Shown here piece by piece: positions 6,866 through 34,929 of a stretch of 64,000 bases of DNA. The position numbers were made by a program, and so were the translations under genes. The stretch is from Candidatus Microgenomates bacterium (GTDB lineage: Bacteria; Patescibacteriota; Microgenomatia; UBA1406; HO2-37-13b). The notes beneath the pieces were generated by a model, which was not told the DNA's origin, searched no databases, and worked only from the letters and a program-made list of their open reading frames with translations. The first letter of the stretch is position 1; every line of letters starts with the position of its first letter. Where the stretch lies: NCBI GenBank assembly GCA_025449735.1, contig JANWIV010000002.1:62001-126000 (forward strand), in the 5' to 3' direction.

Positions 6866-9274
6866 GTGAAAGAAAAAGGATTATCATCAAGAGAAGCCAC
6901 CCAAAGGCAGGCTGAATATGGACGCAATATATTGCCTCGAGGCAAATCGGTATCGATTCTTAAAATACTACTGCGCCAATTTGTTTCACCTCTAGTCTTC
7001 GTCTTGTTTTTTGCCGCTTTAGTCACTATTTATTTTGCTGATTATTCAGATACGATTGTAATTTTATTAGCCGTCATATTAAATACCATTCTTGGTTTCT
7101 ATCAAGAGCTAAAAGCGGAGCATTCATTACATGCGCTATCGGGAATGCTGGCTATTAAAGTAATGGCTTATCGAGACTCTCGGCGCGTCCAACTATTAGC
7201 GACTGATGTTGTGCCGGGAGACTTGATTTATCTCTCCTCTGGAGACAGCGTCCCTGGTGACGGTGTGCTAATTGAAGCCAACAACCTACTCGTCAATGAA
7301 GCGATGCTGACCGGAGAAAGCACGCCTATTATCAAAAAAATTGATAAAAAAAGTGGCCAGATCGGGGATTGGGTATTTATGGGGACCACTGTGACTTCAG
7401 GAACGGGAATCTTTATCGTCAAGCGAATTGGGGCTAGTACTCAAATGGGAACAATTGCCAAAGATTTATCAAAAGTCGAAGAAGAAGCAACGCCACTGCA
7501 AAAAAGAATCACAAATCTATCTTTTTATTTGACCGGTGTCGTGGCAATAGTTTCGGCAATTATTTTTGTAACGGGCATCGCCGTTGGCAATAGCTTTGAG
7601 GATATGTTTACTACCGCTGTTGCTGTTGCCGTGTCGATGATTCCTGAGGGTATGCTTGTGTCGATTACGGTCGTTTTGGCAATTGGCATGCAGAGAATTC
7701 TTAAAAAACATGCCTTAGTGCGTCGCTTAGTCTCGGCTGAGACCCTAGGGATGGTGACTGTTATTGCCACCGATAAGACCGGTACCTTGACCGAAGGGAT
7801 AATGCGAGTCAAGAAAACTAAATTTACCGACAAAAAAGCGGCGATGCTGACATGTATTTATGCCAATGATTTGAGTGATTCACTGGAGTCCGCAATTTGG
7901 AAATGGGCTGATAAGGAAGGAATTGACGGGCAAAAAATTACTGAAGAGAATCCAAGGCAGTCTGTCGTTCCTTTTAACAGTGCGCATAAATATATGAGTG
8001 TCAAAGTTGACGGTAAAGTTTATATGAAAGGGGCACCTGAGGTGGTGCTTAAACTATGCAAACTATCTACCGACGAAAAAAAACAGTGGATGACACTCGC
8101 GGACAGTTGGTCAAGTGAGGGCTTAAGACTGTTGGGTCTCTCTCAAGGCGACAAATGGTTAGGATTAATTGGCGTTGAGGATCCCGTACGCGAAGATGTC
8201 AAATTGGTATTTGATAAAGCGAGGCGAGCGGGAATTCGAGTCATTATGATCACCGGTGACTATGTCGGCACCGCCGAGGCGGTATGGAGAGTAATCGCCG
8301 GCACGCAACCAAAGGTGATTGAAGGTATGGAGCTCAATAATATTTCCAAAAATGAGTTTGATAAAATTGTCCGCACCACTGATATTTTTGCCCGAGTTAC
8401 TGCTGACGAAAAACTGAAGATTGTCCAGGCGCTCTCATCACAGGGTGAGGTAGTGGCATTGGTTGGAGACGGGGTCAATGATGCCCCGGCACTTAAAGCG
8501 GCTGATATTGGCATCGTAGTCGGTGGGGCCAGCGATGTCTCTCGTGAGACGGCGGATATGGTGCTGATAGACTCAAATTTCAATACGATCATTGCCGCCA
8601 TTGAGCAAGGTAGAGGGATGTTTGAAACGATTAAAAAAGTGGTTTTATATTTGCTCGCTAACAGTTTTTCCGAAGTGTTACTTTTGGTTTTGTGTATGAG
8701 TGCTGGTTTGCCGCTAGCGGTGACTGCGGGGCAGATATTATGGATCAATCTAGTGACCGATGGGTTGCCCAATATTGCCCTCACACTTGAGCCTCATGAT
8801 AAAGGTTTGCTACTGAGAAAGCCAAATCTACCGGAAGCGCCGATTGTGGATGCAGTGGGGAAAATCTTGATACTGGTAGTTAGTATCTCGACCGGCTTTG
8901 TCAGCTTTGTCTTTTTTGATTTGTTCTATAGCACCTATGGCTTGTCACTAGCGCGTACAGTTGCTTTTTCTACACTTGGCTTGTCGACGATACTTATGGT
9001 TTTCTCAATAAGGTCATATAAGCCGATTTGGAAGGTCAATCAACTGCAAAATCCCTATTTAGTTCTCGCTGTCGCAATTGGGTTTATTTTGCAACTTTTG
9101 GCAATTTATCATCCGATTATGAATGTGTTTTTGCATACGGTGCCATTAGGGACGCCGGAGTGGCTCGCCGTCATAGCCGGTAGTTTAATTATCCTAATCC
9201 TAGTTGAAACTTTGAAACTTTTCTTTCATAACTTAATTAAGTCGAAAGCCCTGACAATGGTTATTTCTCGTTGA
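6866..9274 (+). CDS. P2-type cation-transporting ATPase
   Basis: An ion-pumping P-type ATPase of 802 residues in the membrane. Seen: TGES actuator loop (about residue 147), PEGM in M4, phosphorylation site DKTGTLT (about 303), nucleotide-binding KGAPE, hinge MITGD and GDGVNDAP, and M5-M6 with LVTDGLPNIAL, the pattern of Ca2+-pump-like P2 ATPases. I infer Ca2+ or a similar cation, not proven. The only in-frame start is a GTG 13 codons after a stop; the N-terminus starts at KGLSSREA, so the usual first 15-25 residues are missing, possibly trimmed by the adjacent repeat. The stop codon overlaps the -35 of the rplC promoter. Confidence 0.92.
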   Translation: MKEKGLSSREATQRQAEYGRNILPRGKSVSILKILLRQFVSPLVFVLFFAALVTIYFADYSDTIVILLAVILNTILGFYQELKAEHSLHALSGMLAIKVMAYRDSRRVQLLATDVVPGDLIYLSSGDSVPGDGVLIEANNLLVNEAMLTGESTPIIKKIDKKSGQIGDWVFMGTTVTSGTGIFIVKRIGASTQMGTIAKDLSKVEEEATPLQKRITNLSFYLTGVVAIVSAIIFVTGIAVGNSFEDMFTTAVAVAVSMIPEGMLVSITVVLAIGMQRILKKHALVRRLVSAETLGMVTVIATDKTGTLTEGIMRVKKTKFTDKKAAMLTCIYANDLSDSLESAIWKWADKEGIDGQKITEENPRQSVVPFNSAHKYMSVKVDGKVYMKGAPEVVLKLCKLSTDEKKQWMTLADSWSSEGLRLLGLSQGDKWLGLIGVEDPVREDVKLVFDKARRAGIRVIMITGDYVGTAEAVWRVIAGTQPKVIEGMELNNISKNEFDKIVRTTDIFARVTADEKLKIVQALSSQGEVVALVGDGVNDAPALKAADIGIVVGGASDVSRETADMVLIDSNFNTIIAAIEQGRGMFETIKKVVLYLLANSFSEVLLLVLCMSAGLPLAVTAGQILWINLVTDGLPNIALTLEPHDKGLLLRKPNLPEAPIVDAVGKILILVVSISTGFVSFVFFDLFYSTYGLSLARTVAFSTLGLSTILMVFSIRSYKPIWKVNQLQNPYLVLAVAIGFILQLLAIYHPIMNVFLHTVPLGTPEWLAVIAGSLIILILVETLKLFFHNLIKSKALTMVISR

Positions 9275-9299
9275 CTTCAAACTGACTGTAGTATATAAT
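9271..9299 (+). promoter_or_regulatory. Promoter of the L3-S9 operon
   Basis: TTGACT (9271-9276), 17-bp spacer, TATAAT (9294-9299): a near-consensus sigma-70 promoter. The predicted transcription start is about 9306, giving a leader of about 86 nt before rplC, one of the few long leaders in this window. The -35 overlaps the stop of the upstream ATPase gene. Confidence 0.88.
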
Positions 9300-9305
9300 T
9301 GCTTC

Positions 9306-9392
9306 TGCATGACAAAGATATTTGTCGTTCCTAGCGTAGTTTAGATCAACTAGATTGGTAAGTTATAAGCCCCAATCTGGGGCTTTTTTTGT
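9306..9392 (+). promoter_or_regulatory. Putative attenuator leader of the ribosomal protein operon
   Basis: The predicted leader can form four elements: hairpin 1 GACAAA-GATA-TTTGTC (9311-9326); hairpin 2 TAGTT-TAGATC-AACTA (9337-9352); an antiterminator in which CTAGATTGG (9350-9358) pairs with CCAATCTGG (9372-9380); and the terminator at 9367-9390. The antiterminator uses bases of both terminator arms, and hairpin 2 uses three bases of the antiterminator, so the structures compete. This is the classic logic of transcription attenuation, here before L3. Regulation by a ribosomal protein such as L4 (as in E. coli) is only an analogy. Confidence 0.7.
9367..9390 (+). terminator. Intrinsic terminator 2 nt before the rplC start
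   Basis: AAGCCCC (9367-9373), loop AATCT, GGGGCTT (9379-9385), with an uninterrupted T-run to 9390. The stem and T-run are textbook. It sits between the operon promoter and the rplC ATG at 9393, so it would stop transcription of the whole operon unless antiterminated; its position also occupies the place of a ribosome binding site. Confidence 0.85.
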
Positions 9393-10058
9393 ATGAAAAG
9401 ATTTATACTCGGAAAAAAACATGAAACTCTGCAAATGTTTAACGATGATGGGAAGCGAATCCCGGTAACTATTGTGAAATCTGAATCTTGTTATTTGGTT
9501 GGCATTAAAACCCAAGATAAGCACGGCTACTACTCAGCAGTGCTTGGTTTTGGAGACATGGCCAAACCTAAGAAACAGCGAGCTGGAGAACTAAAAAAAG
9601 CGGGGATAAAAACCCCGCTTCGTTTTTTAAAGGAAGTAAGGCTTACTGATGATATGGTGAAAGTGGGCGAAAAAGGCAAGCAAGCGCTAGTTCTCGGCGA
9701 GACCACAATTGAAATTGGTGGCAAAATTATGCCGCAGGACATGTTTGTGGTGCCGGCAATGCTATCAGTGAGCGGTCGATCAAAAGGTAAAGGCTTTGCC
9801 GGAGTTGTCAAACGACATGGTTTTGCTGGAGGGCCGGCGACTCATGGTCAATCAGATAGGCATCGAGCTCCAGGTTCAATTGGAGCTACCACCACCCCTG
9901 GTAGAGTGCTCAAGGGCAAGCGAATGGCCGGGCGAATGGGAAGGGTCAATAGCACGATAAGTGGGTTGTCGCTGGTATCAGCAAATGAGGACACATTGGT
10001 TATAAAAGGGATGCTTCCCGGTCGAACCGGAAGCCTACTCTTAATTACCGCAAAATAA
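9393..10058 (+). CDS. rplC: 50S ribosomal protein L3
   Basis: L3, an early-assembling 50S protein near the peptidyl transferase centre. At 221 residues it is normal. The central loop KRHGFAGGPATHGQSDRHR and the GRMG segment near the C-terminus are conserved. It opens the long operon; its ATG follows the terminator T-run by 2 nt, leaving no space for a Shine-Dalgarno. rplD starts 1 nt after its stop. Confidence 0.98.
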   Translation: MKRFILGKKHETLQMFNDDGKRIPVTIVKSESCYLVGIKTQDKHGYYSAVLGFGDMAKPKKQRAGELKKAGIKTPLRFLKEVRLTDDMVKVGEKGKQALVLGETTIEIGGKIMPQDMFVVPAMLSVSGRSKGKGFAGVVKRHGFAGGPATHGQSDRHRAPGSIGATTTPGRVLKGKRMAGRMGRVNSTISGLSLVSANEDTLVIKGMLPGRTGSLLLITAK

Positions 10059-10059
10059 T

Positions 10060-10749
10060 ATGGTAGCAACAAAAGCAGTAGCAGTTAAAAAAACAGTAAA
10101 GAAAGCGACCTCATTGACCATTCCGGTCATTGGTAGCGGACCTGCAAAAAAAGATGGCTTTGCTGTGTCAGAGGCAATCTTTAATGTCGTCGCCAGCCCA
10201 AAATTGCTTTCCCAATACGTGAGGGTTTATTTGGACCGAGCCAGATCCTCAAGAGCTAAAGCTCAAACCCGAGCTGAGGTAAGAGGTTCCAGTCGCAAGA
10301 TATATCGTCAAAAAGGCACTGGACGAGCTCGTCATGGGGATCGCCAGGCACCAATTTTTGTCGGTGGTGGCAAAGCTCATGGACCAAAAGGGATCTCTCG
10401 CATCTTGACAATAAATAAAAAGCAGCGTCAAAAGGCCCTTCTTTATGCCTTGTCACTCAAGCTTAAAAACAATTCAATCTATATGTCTCCTCAATTGGAA
10501 AAGGTCGGCGGCAAAACAAAAGAAATTTTGCCGATTTTAGCCAATGTTGAGAAGAGATCTGGATCGATTCTAATTGTCTTGCCGGATAAAAATTCCGAGC
10601 TTTTAGTGCGATCAATTTCTAATATTGGTAACATTCGCTCCACCTCAGCTCAAAACCTTAATGCTTATGAAGTGATGCAATCTGAAACCATCCTTTTTTC
10701 GCCCTCAGGACTAGCCGCTTTTATGAGTTTGCGTGAAAAAAAGTCATGA
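10060..10749 (+). CDS. rplD: 50S ribosomal protein L4
   Basis: L4 (229 residues) contacts 23S rRNA domain I and the exit tunnel. The tunnel loop with RKIYRQKGTGRARHG and the GGGKAHGP stretch are clear. The first 25 or so residues are a Lys/Ala/Val-rich extension not usual in the family. In E. coli L4 represses the S10 operon through its leader, which makes it a candidate regulator of the attenuator upstream of rplC. Its end overlaps rplW by an ATGA. Confidence 0.97.
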   Translation: MVATKAVAVKKTVKKATSLTIPVIGSGPAKKDGFAVSEAIFNVVASPKLLSQYVRVYLDRARSSRAKAQTRAEVRGSSRKIYRQKGTGRARHGDRQAPIFVGGGKAHGPKGISRILTINKKQRQKALLYALSLKLKNNSIYMSPQLEKVGGKTKEILPILANVEKRSGSILIVLPDKNSELLVRSISNIGNIRSTSAQNLNAYEVMQSETILFSPSGLAAFMSLREKKS

Positions 10750-28627: not shown

Positions 28628-29938
28628 ATGCCAATAGAAAGGGCAACGCGTCCAGATTTAGAGACATTTTTAGTTCGCGATGAGGGAATTGATATCGAGC
28701 TTCCTTATAATGGAACTCTTCATCTTGAAAGTTATGAGAATTCTGAATATAGCGTCGGTGCTGTTGTTGGGCGTTGGGGCGAAAAATGGGAGCGCGACCA
28801 AATTGACAGCCAAATTAGAGCGCTTTATGGCTTGGATGAAAATGGTCGTGATCAAATCGTCGGTGACTCCAGCGGTTTCAAAAATGTTCATAGACCTCAA
28901 GCAGAACTCAGCTATAGAGAGCTTACTCACCAAAGTATTGCGGTGACCGGTTTACATGCCGCAGAAGTAATTAAATTAAATGGCTGGAAACCAAGTGATG
29001 TTGGCGGCTTATTCATTGGTGGTGACGCTCTACCGATTGGAAAGAAAGATAAAGGCCTATCACTCAAACGTCAGCTTTTAGCAGCAAGTGGACTACAGCA
29101 TCTTGACGAGTCTAAGCAAGTATCAATAAAAGCACTGGCCTGTAATTCTGGGGCTGATGAGCTGTTACATGCCCTGGTGAACCCTGATTTTAGAGGTCGA
29201 CCAGTTGTTATAGTTGGCATATCAACTCTTTTTAATGAATTGTCAAAAGCCAAATATCGAGCTCGACCACTGTCGCTAAACATTGACCCTTTTTCATTGC
29301 AAGTATTTTCATATGGTGCCGCTGCCTTTGGCATAATACCTGGTGAGACGATGTCAATCATTGAAGATCTCGGAGGTGAGCCGATTACTATCGTAGATGA
29401 AGAGTTTGATACCGAGCAATCACTCGCGGCAATTACCCCGTTTGACAGCCTGATTGATCACAGCGAACCATATCGAGTGAGGCAAGAAATTGCCGAAAAC
29501 GTCGTCATTGGAATGATGCCAAGGCCGAGGCATAAAGGGAGAGCGCTTGATATGAATTCATATTTGACTTCAAAACTGTTTCCAAAAACGACGACAAAGA
29601 GAGTGCTACAATTTTGGGATCAATTTCGCCAAGCTTATCCAGAGGGAAAATTTGATGAATTGATTATGCATCATGCGAGCTACGCAGTGGGTCAAAGTGT
29701 CCATGGGAAAATGATTAAAGCCGGTATAGACGTGCCTTTTTACTGGACTGTCGACGACGGCAATGCGCCGCCGGCAACAACGCTAACCCATTTAGCTCGT
29801 CGACTGCCATATCTGGGAAATAAAAATATCATGGTTGTCAGTTTTGGCGGGGGCGCTACCTATACCATTTTTGGTCTTCGATTAGGTCCAGATGGGGCGA
29901 GTCCGGATATTGTTAGCAGTTTAAAAGTTTCGATATAA
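28628..29938 (+). CDS. Ketoacyl synthase III-like enzyme (FabH/HMG-CoA-synthase fold)
   Basis: A thiolase-fold condensing enzyme of 436 residues, longer than typical FabH (about 320). The Cys-His-Asn triad is visible: Cys in LACNSGADELLHAL (about 171), His in MHHASYAVGQSVHGKM (about 347), Asn in DGNAPPATTLTHLA (about 378), followed by SFGGGATYTIFGL. It should load a starter acyl-CoA or form a C-C bond by decarboxylative condensation. First gene of a three-gene operon; the FabF-like gene follows after 3 nt. FabH, a hydroxymethylglutaryl-type or a polyketide starter enzyme all remain possible. Confidence 0.85.
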   Translation: MPIERATRPDLETFLVRDEGIDIELPYNGTLHLESYENSEYSVGAVVGRWGEKWERDQIDSQIRALYGLDENGRDQIVGDSSGFKNVHRPQAELSYRELTHQSIAVTGLHAAEVIKLNGWKPSDVGGLFIGGDALPIGKKDKGLSLKRQLLAASGLQHLDESKQVSIKALACNSGADELLHALVNPDFRGRPVVIVGISTLFNELSKAKYRARPLSLNIDPFSLQVFSYGAAAFGIIPGETMSIIEDLGGEPITIVDEEFDTEQSLAAITPFDSLIDHSEPYRVRQEIAENVVIGMMPRPRHKGRALDMNSYLTSKLFPKTTTKRVLQFWDQFRQAYPEGKFDELIMHHASYAVGQSVHGKMIKAGIDVPFYWTVDDGNAPPATTLTHLARRLPYLGNKNIMVVSFGGGATYTIFGLRLGPDGASPDIVSSLKVSI

Positions 29939-29941
29939 ATT

Positions 29942-31255
29942 ATGAGAAATCCTGAAGGAGAACAAAGAATAGTCGTAACCGGTATGGGGGCGGTTACTTC
30001 ACTTGGTCACAATTTAGATACTACTTGGGAAAATGTTAAAGCGGGTAAGACCGGATTTTCATATGTTGACCTTTCACCCTCGGACATTTCAGTAGTTGGA
30101 GAGGTCAAAGATTTTAATATGGAGCAATTGTTGCCGTCTGTTGTCGAGATTGGGGGTAAGCAATATCCAATTAGAAAAGTGATCAAAAGATTATCTCCAG
30201 CAGCTCAGTTTGCTATTTCTGCGTCATACGAAGCATTAAAAAATGCTGGAGTGGTGCAAAATGAATTTGAGCTTGATCCTGCGGTTAATCCTGAAAAATT
30301 CGGAATTACTGGGGCCTCTGGAATTGGAGGTGCCGAGGAAGTGGCCGAAATATATAAAAGATTAATTGAGGGCAAAACGGCTCATCCATCGAGTCTATTC
30401 ACTCTTCTAATTGAGAGAGGGGCGACTTTTCTAAGCATAATGGTTGATGCTAAGGGTCCAGTTGAGTCGGTATCGCTCGCTTGCGCTTCGGGGGGTCGAG
30501 CAATTAATAATGCGGTGAGGCTACTGCTTTTGGGCGATGCGGAGATAATGGTTGCTAATGCTGGTGAGCATGCGGCCAATCAAATTGCTGCTTCGCTTTT
30601 TACCAACACCGGGACGACTTCAAATGACGTTAGTACTACTGGTGCCGGGCTACCATTTGATAAAAACCGCAATGGTTTTGTACTCGGCGAAGGGGGCGGA
30701 GCGATGGTCATCGAAACTCTAGAGCATGCCTTAAGAAGGGGAGCGATCCCGGTAGCTGAGATCGTCGGTTATGCCGACACGGCCGATGCTTGGCATGAGT
30801 CTGATCCCAGTGGTAAAGGGGCGGTACGAGCAATTCAGAAGGCAAAAGACAAAAGTGGTATAGACTATCGTGGTAGAAATAAATTTATTAAAGCTCATGC
30901 TACTGGCACTATTAATGGGGATCCGGTTGAAGCAAGATCAATAAAGGAAGCTAATGAAGAAGAGGGACAGATTCTTATATGGGCGCCTAAAAGCCAGCTC
31001 GGTCATACGCTTGGTAATGCTGGGATGGTTGAGGCGGTTCTATCTATAAAGGCTCTTGAGGAAGGGGTGCTGCCGCCGACGGTGAATTTAAATGATCCTA
31101 TTGAAGAAATTGATGGCTTTGAATTTACGACTGAGAATGCAATACCGATGGAAAATGTCGATATTGCGATAAGCAATTCCTTTGGTTTTGGCGGTGGCAA
31201 CGCGGTGACAATTTTTCAATCCTACGATGGGCCACAGCCTAAGAGAGAAATATAA
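29942..31255 (+). CDS. Ketoacyl-ACP synthase II-like enzyme (FabF type)
   Basis: An elongating condensing enzyme of 437 residues. Catalytic residues are intact: Cys in LACASGG (about 180), His in KAHATGTINGDPVEA (about 318), Lys and His in KSQLGHTLGNAG (about 349 and 354), and the oxyanion/Phe-gate region NSFGFGGGNAVTIF. Substrates are probably acyl-ACP and malonyl-ACP, though no ACP or malonyltransferase gene is in this window. Cotranscribed with the FabH-like gene under operator 2. FabF of primary fatty acid synthesis or a KS of a polyene/polyketide pathway are both possible. Confidence 0.9.
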   Translation: MRNPEGEQRIVVTGMGAVTSLGHNLDTTWENVKAGKTGFSYVDLSPSDISVVGEVKDFNMEQLLPSVVEIGGKQYPIRKVIKRLSPAAQFAISASYEALKNAGVVQNEFELDPAVNPEKFGITGASGIGGAEEVAEIYKRLIEGKTAHPSSLFTLLIERGATFLSIMVDAKGPVESVSLACASGGRAINNAVRLLLLGDAEIMVANAGEHAANQIAASLFTNTGTTSNDVSTTGAGLPFDKNRNGFVLGEGGGAMVIETLEHALRRGAIPVAEIVGYADTADAWHESDPSGKGAVRAIQKAKDKSGIDYRGRNKFIKAHATGTINGDPVEARSIKEANEEEGQILIWAPKSQLGHTLGNAGMVEAVLSIKALEEGVLPPTVNLNDPIEEIDGFEFTTENAIPMENVDIAISNSFGFGGGNAVTIFQSYDGPQPKREI

Positions 31256-31261
31256 CTTTAG

Positions 31262-31729
31262 ATGACAGAATACGTAAGGTTTCATAATACGGAATTATCG
31301 TTTGCAGACGAGAATAATCAAGAAATAGATATCGGCACTCATCTTACTGTCAAAAAGAGTAAATCTCCTACTGTCCTTGAATTTGATTTGAATCGCAATC
31401 TCGATAGCATTGACGCGCTGACGATTTTTGGCTATACTCGCCAATTTCTAAGTAATTCAGAATCCGATTTTAGACTTTTAGCCACTCAACTTCAAAGTGA
31501 AGAATTTGAGCAGATCGTGGAGATTTTCGGAATAGGCGTTTTTCCTGAAGCGATGGGAAAAAGGTTTGGTTTTCAGTCAGAAATATATTCAACTAACCAA
31601 AAATTAATTGCTAAGTTTCTTAAACAAACGCCAAAAAAGTCGCTATTAGGTAGCGATCATAGTAAAAAAGCCTTGAGAAGATTTTCAATTAGTCGGGAAG
31701 ACTTTATTCAAAAATATTCAAATTCTTAA
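31262..31729 (+). CDS. Unknown protein of the ketosynthase operon, 155 aa
   Basis: I do not recognise this protein. It starts 6 nt after the FabF-like gene, so it is cotranscribed with the two ketosynthases. A beta-rich first 45 residues is followed by helices; a stretch NLDSIDALTIF loosely recalls the ACP DSL site, but the preceding helix of an ACP is absent and I do not call it one. Soluble, no signal peptide, basic C-terminus. It ends 2 bp from the convergent reductase-dehydratase gene. Confidence 0.75.
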   Translation: MTEYVRFHNTELSFADENNQEIDIGTHLTVKKSKSPTVLEFDLNRNLDSIDALTIFGYTRQFLSNSESDFRLLATQLQSEEFEQIVEIFGIGVFPEAMGKRFGFQSEIYSTNQKLIAKFLKQTPKKSLLGSDHSKKALRRFSISREDFIQKYSNS

Positions 31730-31731
31730 AA

Positions 31732-33462
31732 CTATTCAGAGAATGTTCCTTCAAGCATCGCAATTAGTCTTTCTTTCGGGACGACTTTACAATTAATTCC
31801 AGTAATAACTCCTCTCTTTTTTCCATCAATAAAAAATTCTACATTACCTTCAAACAGCGACTTTCCGGATTTTGTCATTAAGGCTCTAAATTCAATTGTA
31901 CTATCAACTGTTAGATCGCTTAATTGATCAAAAAAATCGACATCCTCAATGCTTTTTAAAAGTGGCAATCGATCGCTCATTTCCCTTGATTGAGAATAAA
32001 GCAGGCCTAGAGTTTGCGCGGCGGCTTCAATAATCTGTTCGCTCGGAAATAACCTTGTTTCGTCTGCAACTATCCATTCACCTACCATCGTTTCAATTTG
32101 AGCAATTTCACTTTTTTCGGTTGTCAATATGGTTTCCTCAGCATAGAAGGACCCTTTAAGATCTCCGGCATCAGATTTAATTTTAAGTGTGTCTCCGGGC
32201 CGAACCACATTTACAAATTGTATTGGATCAAAAATTCCTCCTAATGCGACTCTTTTATTCTGGTCACGATATCCCCTTCTAATGAACGAAGCCATTTCCA
32301 TTTTAGCGCCAGCAATTAGAGAAACGGCAATTTGATCGACGCCGCGCAATACGCTAGGGAGACCGGAAGCGGCGTCAAAATGGCCGGCAACATGGTTATC
32401 TGTGATCTTCACTTGTGCTATATACTCATCAATAAGCTCAATTTCATCATCAGTAAATGTTGGCTTCATTCGATCCAGCGTAACTTTCATTGTGGCGACG
32501 GCCTCATTTTCACCGAAATTCATAAAATCATCAAGTAATAATTTATTTGGACCATACATATAAAGTATTTCTGCAATCTGCGGTCGGTCTAGACCGCTCA
32601 CCCCAACAAATACATTTTGTCGGGCTTCCCATGGATCTAAGGCGAGATTAAGTGCTGAAACGGCGACGTCGACCCGCATTGGCGTCCGATGCTCACCATT
32701 GGTGTTGCTTTTGTCATGAAGTTGAGCGATTTGTTCGTCGCTCATTTTTCGCATCATTAAATTCATCGCACTTGTATCAATGACTGGTCCTGATATTAAA
32801 GAAACTCGTTTAATTCCCACATCAGAAAGCGCTTCAGACATTTTGTCAAGCCGCATATCGCCCTCATGCTTGGCATGCGCGGTTCTTTGATAACGATCAA
32901 TTGGCATGGGAAGCGAAAGATATTTAGATGGGGTGCTGGGGATGGTGACAAATAAGCCACGATCAAACAGCGTCGTCTCACCAAACATTTGCTCATAAAG
33001 GAGAGCTGTTTCAACCGGAGCCTTTACATTCAAATTTTCTGCCTCCTCATCGGTGCCACGAATTCCACCCGCGGGAAGGAAAAAAATCCCATCAAGTCGA
33101 CCATAGGTTTCTTTTATATGCTGAAATAAAGTCGCTCTGCTCTCACTGTCGGTAATATCAGCCTGCAAGGCGACAATTTCTCCCCCCAATGCAAGCTTGC
33201 TTGCCCATTGCAGTTCTTTTATTTGTGCCTGGGTATCTTCGTTATCGTGAATATGAGGAATGATAACGGTGGCTTCTTTCATTGCAAGTGCTAATGTGAT
33301 TGCGCCACCGATGCTACCTTCAATTCTATTACCACCCGGGACTAAATATACCTTGTTTTTAAGCTCAGCGCCCTCTTCAATACATGATCTAAGTTGATCG
33401 ACTAGTTCAAGTCTTGCTTTTCGATAGTCCAATTCCTTTGTTTGAGGTCTTTCAGTTGTCAT
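31732..33462 (-). CDS. SDR reductase - hot-dog dehydratase fusion
   Basis: A 576-residue two-domain enzyme. Residues about 35-260 are a Rossmann short-chain-dehydrogenase-like domain: nucleotide loop PGGNRIEGSIGGAI, LQADITD, and FLPAGGI at the NAG position. The canonical YxxxK pair is not obvious; the nearest is RYQRTAHAK. Residues about 350-460 resemble the FabZ/FabA hot-dog fold: a His in NHVAGHFD followed by LPSVLRGVDQ. Together they would reduce and dehydrate a 3-ketoacyl group. The ATG at 33462 follows a -10 TATTCT by 7 nt; an upstream TTG in frame is rejected. No enoyl reductase accompanies it here. Confidence 0.72.
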   Translation of the reverse strand: MTTERPQTKELDYRKARLELVDQLRSCIEEGAELKNKVYLVPGGNRIEGSIGGAITLALAMKEATVIIPHIHDNEDTQAQIKELQWASKLALGGEIVALQADITDSESRATLFQHIKETYGRLDGIFFLPAGGIRGTDEEAENLNVKAPVETALLYEQMFGETTLFDRGLFVTIPSTPSKYLSLPMPIDRYQRTAHAKHEGDMRLDKMSEALSDVGIKRVSLISGPVIDTSAMNLMMRKMSDEQIAQLHDKSNTNGEHRTPMRVDVAVSALNLALDPWEARQNVFVGVSGLDRPQIAEILYMYGPNKLLLDDFMNFGENEAVATMKVTLDRMKPTFTDDEIELIDEYIAQVKITDNHVAGHFDAASGLPSVLRGVDQIAVSLIAGAKMEMASFIRRGYRDQNKRVALGGIFDPIQFVNVVRPGDTLKIKSDAGDLKGSFYAEETILTTEKSEIAQIETMVGEWIVADETRLFPSEQIIEAAAQTLGLLYSQSREMSDRLPLLKSIEDVDFFDQLSDLTVDSTIEFRALMTKSGKSLFEGNVEFFIDGKKRGVITGINCKVVPKERLIAMLEGTFSE

Positions 33463-33469
33463 GATTAAT

Positions 33470-33515
33470 AGAATATCACTGGTTTTAAAAGTGATCAATA
33501 TCGCTTATCTATATC
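33470..33515 (-). promoter_or_regulatory. Operator-promoter site 3 of the ketosynthase regulon
   Basis: On the minus strand GATATAG (complement of 33509-33515), 7 nt, ATATTGAT (to 33494). -35 TTGATC is the complement of 33493-33498, 17-bp spacer, -10 TATTCT complement of 33470-33475; start codon 7 nt further. Inverted half-sites ATATAG and CGATAT, one mismatch from perfect. Confidence 0.8.
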
Positions 33516-33531
33516 AAAATAAACCAATTGT

Positions 33532-34929
33532 TTATAAATTGGCGAGGCTATATATTTCAGGTAGGTATTCAGAATCATCATTTTTTCTGTCATAAAATGA
33601 AAGCCAGGCAGCAGGCACGGTATATTTCCAATTTGGCCATTGATCTTTGACAAAAGGGACAGGTATTTTTCGAAGCTGAAGTTGATCTTGTGTCAAATAA
33701 TCGGCAATTTTCTCTTCTGATAAATTTTTAATTCCCTTTTGTTGAGCAATAATTTCCAGAAGCTCTTTCGCATCAATGCTTCCAGCCATGAACTCCGGAT
33801 TAAATGCCAACTCTTGATGATTTTCTGTCATCAGATAAAGTAGACTTCGCCAACCATCAGCTAATGTGCCGCGAGGATTTTTTGCTGACCAATAGTCGAA
33901 ATAATTTTTCCCCCCGTGTTTTGTCGATCTTTGTCGGGTAGCAATAAATGGAGAAAAAGACGGACCGAGCACATTGCTGGCGCCAAATCGACGCGCTTTA
34001 TCGATGATACCAAATAAAGCGGCTCCCACAATTTCGTCGCCCTCGATCTTGCTGTCTTTGCCGACGCTCGTTATAATGATAGTTTTGCCGGCCAAATCAT
34101 TATTGGTCTGCATACGGACACGACGATCTAACAGTTCCTGCCAGGTAATTCGCGACAATTCGACATAATTCTCATCCTCAGGATTATCGGTGACTATTTT
34201 TTCAACTGCAAAAAAACTACCATATCCAACAACTTCCCTATCATTACGGTCAAGTATTGCAAGCCATCCTTTTCCCTCCTCAACTCCGCGTTGATTTATG
34301 GGAGCGCCTGGTTTTATCAAAAGGCGTTGTCTTCGCAATGAATCAAAACCCCAATGCTGATTGACGATTGACTCAATTTTTGGCCATTGCCGCTCATTTG
34401 GGTCGACGGCGTCGAATTTTTTCTCAAGCTGAAAGCGAGCTTCCCGTTTCAACCCATCTGGTATCATTCTTACCATCAATTCCGCCCTTCCATGAAGGCG
34501 TCTGGCTGCTTGTTCATCCTCGCCATTATCAATCATTTCTTTTATAAAATCCTCTTTATCCTTTAAATGGTCAGTGGTTTCACCGATCGGTTGAAGTACT
34601 CGACTGATACGTCTGAGCGAGGATTTATTATCGCTCTCCTTATCCCTATGAAAGAGAGAGGAAGCAAAATTGTGAGTGAATTTGGTTATTGGTGAATCAG
34701 GGTGGGTTTTCTCTGCGGCTTCCTCGATCGCCATAGCTGAATTTTGTTCATCGGATGGAATTTCGGTTATTTGTTTTCGAGACTGCCAAAAGTCGTAACT
34801 TTTCTTGAGACCATAGGAGGCGCTCAAAGCCGCAACCGCAATAAGACCAGTGTAGACGGCATTTTTAGCGCGATGATGCTTATCAACTTCATCAGACGTG
34901 TCATAAGGTGAGCTTGAATCTTTTTCCAT
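33532..34929 (-). CDS. Membrane-anchored GNAT-like protein
   Basis: A 465-residue protein with an N-terminal cytoplasmic stretch, one membrane segment (about residues 27-43), a charged helical linker, and a C-terminal domain from about residue 200. That domain has WLAILDRNDREVVGYGSF, then VELSRITW, then DEIVGAALFGIIDKARRFGA, the strand-strand-helix order of GNAT acyltransferases, but the acyl-CoA loop (Q/RxxGxG/A) is not clean, so the call is tentative. It is controlled by the same operator as the ketosynthases, suggesting it uses or modifies their acyl product at the membrane. Confidence 0.5.
   Translation of the reverse strand: MEKDSSSPYDTSDEVDKHHRAKNAVYTGLIAVAALSASYGLKKSYDFWQSRKQITEIPSDEQNSAMAIEEAAEKTHPDSPITKFTHNFASSLFHRDKESDNKSSLRRISRVLQPIGETTDHLKDKEDFIKEMIDNGEDEQAARRLHGRAELMVRMIPDGLKREARFQLEKKFDAVDPNERQWPKIESIVNQHWGFDSLRRQRLLIKPGAPINQRGVEEGKGWLAILDRNDREVVGYGSFFAVEKIVTDNPEDENYVELSRITWQELLDRRVRMQTNNDLAGKTIIITSVGKDSKIEGDEIVGAALFGIIDKARRFGASNVLGPSFSPFIATRQRSTKHGGKNYFDYWSAKNPRGTLADGWRSLLYLMTENHQELAFNPEFMAGSIDAKELLEIIAQQKGIKNLSEEKIADYLTQDQLQLRKIPVPFVKDQWPNWKYTVPAAWLSFYDRKNDDSEYLPEIYSLANL

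Follow-up and report, generated by a model that had tools for sequence, protein, structure and literature searches.

A gene of a Microgenomates genome encodes a protein in which an SDR domain of the PRK07806 type is fused to a FabZ-derived dehydratase. We consider the product to be a bifunctional enzyme of beta-carbon processing, combining dehydratase and enoyl reductase, that belongs to a small cluster for fatty-acyl or polyketide-type synthesis in Microgenomates, and we give this reading a probability of roughly 60%. The window, i.e., the 64,000-nucleotide stretch of DNA that was analyzed, corresponds to positions 62001-126000 of a 277-kb contig (genome of 0.82 Mb in 4 contigs). A reading of the nucleotide sequence and its translations (here called the sequence-only reading) had already described a fusion of an SDR with a FabZ-type domain. 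This description was borne out, since Pfam/NCBIfam matches were found in both halves and five orthologues keep the architecture. The features of the gene, of its product and of the neighboring genes are listed in Table 1.

Table 1. Features of the fusion gene, its product and its neighbors (window positions; residues are those of the 576-aa protein)
Feature	Positions	Strand	Remarks
KASIII-like ketosynthase	28628..29938	+	No Pfam match; Cys-His-Asn positions conserved
FabF-type ketosynthase	29942..31255	+	Cys-His-Lys-His conserved
155-aa protein	31262..31729	+	No family match; last in the ketosynthase row, convergent with the fusion gene
SDR-double hot-dog fusion gene	31732..33462	-	576 aa, ATG at 33462
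465-aa protein	33532..34929	-	Without family; upstream of the fusion, same strand
SDR (Rossmann) domain, PRK07806-type	32554..33366	-	Residues 33-303
Nucleotide-binding loop PGGNRIEGSIGGA	33301..33339	-	Residues 42-54 (GGNRIEGSIGGA = 43-54); 3-residue insertion compared with the other fusions
Asn145	33028..33030	-	Aligns with the SDR catalytic Asn; 5/6 fusions
Ser176	32935..32937	-	Invariant, 6/6 fusions
Tyr191-x6-Lys198 motif YQRTAHAK	32869..32892	-	Tyr and Lys invariant, 6/6 fusions
Dehydratase region, FabZ-derived double hot-dog	31735..32553	-	Residues 304-576
First 2 strands of host hot-dog, split off by the inserted hot-dog (proposed)	32455..32550	-	Residues 305-336
Inserted hot-dog (proposed) with catalytic His (GHF)	32074..32454	-	Residues 337-463
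His361	32380..32382	-	Invariant in 6 fusions and standalone L003
Host hot-dog (proposed): helix and last strands, catalytic Glu, C-terminal tail	31735..32073	-	Residues 464-576
Glu479 (IIEAAAQ)	32026..32028	-	Invariant in 6 fusions and L003

The fusion gene and its distribution

An in-frame TTG at 33498, located 36 nt upstream of the ATG, is an alternative start that would add 12 amino acids to the protein. A class-wide search of 372 genomes identified five full-length fusion orthologues, which share 23-27% identity with the window protein and are found at loci L019/L029 (genome G682), L020/L030 (G738), L021/L031 (G680), L022/L032 (G754) and L023/L033 (G725). Two of these genomes are from Candidatus Daviesbacteria (Microgenomates). 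The open reading frame is real and not a product of chance, because its architecture is kept in the five full-length orthologues and Tyr191, Lys198 and Ser176 are invariant. No further full-length fusion was found in 96 relatives or elsewhere in 379 genomes of the phylum, and the window fusion used as a single query had no match in genome contigs, viral contigs or plasmids. The alignment of the six fusions had no stretch conserved enough to serve as a search query. Within the class the fusion is a genuine trait with a sporadic distribution, and its parts also exist separately: the SDR part alone is encoded in two more Microgenomates genomes (L024 and L025) and the dehydratase part alone in one (L003, 330 aa).

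Active site and family of the SDR domain

The exact Tyr-x6-Lys spacing is present in all six fusions and in the standalone SDRs L024 and L025, while nearly all FabG-type SDRs recovered in the same searches have YxxxK. The sequence-only reading had noted this spacing; the lysine that it also placed eight positions after the tyrosine is the one in this motif, at +7. Conservation of the tyrosine and lysine in orthologues, which it had proposed as a check, was confirmed (Table 1), and Ala195 is also invariant in the six proteins. The altered nucleotide-binding loop that it had described is present in the window protein but is not conserved: the loop of the relatives is of the ordinary TGxxxGIG type and GGNRIEGSIGGA is a private three-residue insertion. 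Insertions at the same position also occur in three neighboring FabG genes and in FabI, so the window loop is no evidence of FabI kinship. Because this change is confined to the window protein, the idea of a FabI-type loop was rejected.

The SDR half of the window protein matched Pfam adh_short_C2 (3.9e-7) and NCBIfam PRK07806 (2e-15, residues 33-252). Each of the five orthologues had PRK07806 (NF005868) as its best SDR model, with scores of 96-156 bits compared with 57 bits for the window protein, and no fusion passes its curated cut-off of 162 bits (the best, L029, reaches 156). The FabL model was second-best for L029 (54 bits) and L030 (75 bits), and in L030 its match spans nearly the whole domain and scores above FabG; the fusions score 33-75 bits with this model and do not pass its cut-off of 328 bits. 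In the tree, the fusion SDRs and PRK07806-type SDRs of other phyla form a single clade (100/100). FabG-type SDRs lie beyond a 97/93 branch, and FabL and FabI are located on the Y-x6-K side together with the fusions, although FabI is a very long branch within this split and the window copy is a long branch too. The fusion SDRs are not in one clade with FabL and are separate from the FabI clade. The reference sequences BsFabL and EcFabI each match a PDB entry over their full length. Within the tree the SDR domains from G680 and the window pair (88/83), both as long branches.

Our literature search found no assayed function for any PRK07806-type SDR, no paper on PRK07806 and no paper on CPR enoyl-ACP reductases. 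One PRK07806-type SDR with Y-x6-K, encoded on an E. coli IncP plasmid (L123:2992-3723), adjoins the intI1 integrase gene, and qacEdelta1 and sul1 follow downstream of the SDR gene, an arrangement like that of a cassette in an integron.

A double hot-dog dehydratase

The C-terminal part had been described as a single FabZ/FabA-like hot-dog. Its derivation from FabZ held, but the region is a double hot-dog and not one domain. NCBIfam FabZ matched residues 348-458 of the window protein (3.2e-8), and a profile of the seven available hot-dog regions (the six fusions and L003) matched FabZ structures with its first half (4zw0, 2.7e-7) and with its second half (4i83, 5.5e-7). The two halves also match one another in profile comparison. 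Among the profile matches MaoC appeared only with an E-value of 0.05 and in two of the seven members, the others being FabZ/FabA, and no PKS dehydratase was among the sequence matches. In the first half the motif GHF...PGHKxIAA keeps the FabZ histidine and the FabZ glutamate is absent, whereas in the second half the motif IIEAAAQ keeps the glutamate and the histidine is absent; both residues are invariant in 7/7 sequences. At the level of sequence, this complementary loss implies that each chain would have one composite active site, formed by His361 and Glu479 from different hot-dogs.

The arrangement of the two hot-dogs was approached by modeling and alignment. Both AlphaFold models had a mean pLDDT of only 60. 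The top fold match of the L036 dehydratase model (mean pLDDT 60) was FabZ (Z 15.4, 125 residues, rmsd 2.6), and the match spans model residues 1-245. It needs sequence beyond the second half, because that half alone has only about 90 residues; in the model, part of the match most likely comes from the confidently modeled strands at residues 9-23. When residues 305-336 were joined to residues 464-576, a colinear FabZ alignment of 108 columns with a score of 43.6 was obtained; the second half by itself scored 40.8, and none of 20 shuffled controls exceeded 41.7. A combined alignment of single FabZ and double hot-dog sequences was left out of the folding, since in it FabZ must be split over both halves. 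The L036 match and the colinear alignment of the joined segments lead us to propose, with moderate confidence, a nested arrangement in which the active-site loop of one hot-dog accommodates the other.

Keto- or enoyl-reductase

FabI and FabL, both enoyl-ACP reductases, have the Y-x6-K spacing, and the signature of B. subtilis FabL is Asn-Ser-Tyr-x6-Lys (PMC9260719). Four of the six clusters have a gene for a separate YxxxK SDR immediately 5' of the fusion and in the same orientation; of these four, two were profile-scanned and both match FabG. Ketoreduction is therefore already provided for in these clusters. No FabK-family match was found in G738, G680 or G725, all three of which have the upstream YxxxK SDR, and the weak FabK-family matches in G682 and G754 were not counted. 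Metagenomic FabG-like enzymes with Val at the position of FabG Tyr151 rescue fabI(Ts) mutants of E. coli but do not rescue fabG(Ts) mutants (PMC5006077). When a YxPVAxSK motif is placed on FabG numbering its Val falls exactly at the Tyr151 position, a link that is suggestive only, because Val at Lys-4 is also found in FabL. The Y-x6-K spacing, the upstream FabG in 4/6 clusters, the side of the tree and the Val link favor enoyl reduction, and the SDR half is probably an enoyl reductase that is FabL-like in its motif and is not a FabI.

The combination of enoyl reductase and dehydratase had been put forward by the sequence-only reading, and it is the better one in view of the invariant Y-x6-K and the adjoining FabG, but neither the window genome nor G754 yielded any SDR besides the fusion. 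In these two genomes, which are 88.7% and 96% complete, respectively, the SDR half may therefore act as a ketoreductase or have a dual role. The more general alternative, that the SDR reduces a 3-ketoacyl thioester and the hot-dogs dehydrate the product to a 2-enoyl (possibly polyene) chain, or that the SDR does both reductions, appears considerably less probable. Such an enzyme would carry out consecutive steps and would supply the ketoreductase that the set of ketosynthase, SDR and dehydratase otherwise lacks in the two lone-SDR genomes, and many ketoreductases are present in the fold match lists. On the other hand, it would leave the four clusters with a canonical FabG directly upstream with two ketoreductases and no enoyl reductase, its Y-x6-K is invariant where YxxxK would be expected, its clade is separate from FabG, and the lone-SDR genomes could miss genes or rely on a reductase from a different family. 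The earlier deduction that the product would be a saturated chain instead of a polyene does not follow, since the sole SDR of the window genome may be a ketoreductase. Structure prediction, which had been recommended as a check, produced the FabZ fold match described above and, for the full-length model, a Foldseek list of SDR matches only, but it did not separate keto- from enoyl-reductases.

Neighboring genes and the acyl carrier

The three-gene ketosynthase row on the opposite strand stops 2 bases from the fusion gene, and alignment with relatives showed that the catalytic positions are intact in both ketosynthases. Ketosynthase and fusion genes are tail to tail in G680 (L031:7511-9037 / 9026-10684) as well as in the window, and share a strand in G738, G754 and G725. 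A member of the KASIII-like family in G078 (L018:11872-13155) is located near a gene for a PlsC-type acyltransferase and not near a fusion. The 155-aa protein has a segment, LDSIDALTIF, that by eye resembles an ACP attachment site; it matched no family and was not counted as an ACP. Genes for a Crp/Fnr-like regulator, identified by eye, were seen near the fusion clusters at L029:6384-7073, L032:12623-13354 and L033:12504-13208.

The strong divergence of the window copy raises the question whether it is a remnant, decayed or repurposed, with one half that has lost catalysis. The insertion in the nucleotide loop, the window hot-dog motif GHFDAASGLPSVLRG, which deviates from the PGHK consensus, the long branch in the tree and the status of only SDR in the genome would agree with decay. 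Nevertheless, the open reading frame is intact, all residues shared invariantly by the other five fusions are kept in the window protein and the ketosynthases retain their catalytic residues, which makes a remnant very improbable.

In G682, G754 and G725 a FabD gene lies in the vicinity of the fusion, and an acetyl-CoA carboxylase-type carboxyltransferase was seen in G680 only. Pfam ACP matches were obtained in G725 and G682 only, in both cases between nusB- and rnc-like genes, and none was found in the window genome and the three other fusion genomes. In these two ACP-like proteins (L116:1471-1806, minus strand, in G725 and L117:1095-1331, plus strand, in G682) the sequence GP(V/I)EL replaces DSLxxxEL; the Asp-Ser of the prosthetic-group site is Gly-Pro, so there is no serine. 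They may be relics of an ACP, or an ACP put to another use, at the customary acpP-rnc location. No ACP synthase above the cut-off was found in any of the six fusion genomes; a weak candidate in G000 (E 0.11) was rejected, as it is a 190-aa open reading frame unlike ACP synthase. The positive controls of these pathway-gene searches were detected in reference genomes. The carrier may be too divergent to detect, CoA may be used or the genes may be absent from the assemblies.

An MFE-2-like CoA enzyme, acting by hydration and dehydrogenation in acyl breakdown or in the recycling of scavenged lipids, would have the same domain order, an SDR followed by a double hot-dog, and would be consistent with the searches of the genomes, in which neither a canonical ACP nor an ACP synthase was found, and with the view that CPR bacteria scavenge lipids (PMC12455944). 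We regard it as improbable: the hot-dogs match FabZ and not MaoC/hydratase-2, the neighbors are those of synthesis (ketosynthases and, in relatives, FabG and the malonyl-transferase FabD), and the SDR has Y-x6-K instead of YxxxK.

Proposed pathway and significance

According to the dehydratase-enoyl reductase reading, the KASIII-like and FabF-type ketosynthases beside the fusion would extend the chain and, in most relatives, the 3-hydroxyacyl substrate would be made by the separate YxxxK FabG whose gene directly precedes the fusion. The double hot-dog would dehydrate this 3-hydroxyacyl thioester at the composite site of His361 and Glu479, and the trans-2-enoyl thioester so formed would then be reduced by the SDR part with NAD(P)H by means of Tyr191 and Lys198. 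We infer the direction and order of these reactions and the enoyl-reductase assignment, as well as a carrier that would be ACP or CoA. A more specific picture, in which a dehydratase-enoyl reductase whose two hot-dogs are interleaved serves a minimal Patescibacteria acyl synthesis that operates without a canonical phosphopantetheinylated carrier, is speculative and, taken as a whole, rather unlikely.

Patescibacteria are generally described as lipid scavengers that are unable to make fatty acids and are without a complete fatty acid synthesis (PMC7143001, PMC12455944). A conserved fusion beside ketosynthases, with the catalytic residues intact, points to some in-house building of acyl chains in several Microgenomates, and the fusion is a concrete protein with which acyl synthesis by Patescibacteria can be assayed. 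Enoyl reduction is also suggested as a function for the unassigned PRK07806-type SDRs. A single-chain dehydratase built from two split and apparently nested hot-dogs would be unusual.

Comparison with known systems

The closest family, PRK07806 (NF005868), has Ser...Tyr-x6-Lys like the fusions and shares a clade with them that includes plasmid-borne members; its members seen elsewhere are standalone proteins, and the fusions remain below its 162-bit cut-off. With FabL, the enoyl-ACP reductase III of B. subtilis, the fusions share Asn-Ser-Tyr-x6-Lys without Met (the asparagine in 5/6) and the orthologues share an ordinary nucleotide loop; they differ from it in their low scores (33-75 bits compared with 328), their position outside the FabL clade and the attached dehydratase. 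The spacing is also that of FabI and InhA, and the sequence-only reading had suggested that the domain could be FabI-type. This assignment did not hold: FabI has Met in its motif (YxxMxxxK), where the window protein has Thr and the orthologues Val, the fusions carry a FabG-like Ser176 instead and belong to the separate PRK07806-type clade, and the FabI loop GxxxxxSxA is approached by the window protein alone, with G for A, through its private insertion, a likeness that is superficial. FabG has Tyr-x3-Lys, as do the separate adjoining genes, while the fusions have x6 in 6/6.

FabZ, which both hot-dog halves match by sequence, is a single hot-dog with His and Glu. Both residues of the FabZ dimer site are present in the fusion, but here they are split over two hot-dogs per chain that would form one site, and the fusion further differs by the apparent nesting and the attached SDR. 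Peroxisomal MFE-2 (HSD17B4/Fox2) is a single chain in which an SDR precedes a double hot-dog hydratase. The fusions share this order; they differ in having FabZ-type motifs instead of the hydratase-2 motif, a split His/Glu pair, Y-x6-K and a synthesis-type neighborhood. In the double hot-dog dehydratase of type I PKS, the first hot-dog contributes a His and the second an acidic residue to one site. The fusion chain has no ACP or ketosynthase and its hot-dog order is proposed to be nested, but it likewise combines a histidine and an acidic residue across two hot-dogs.
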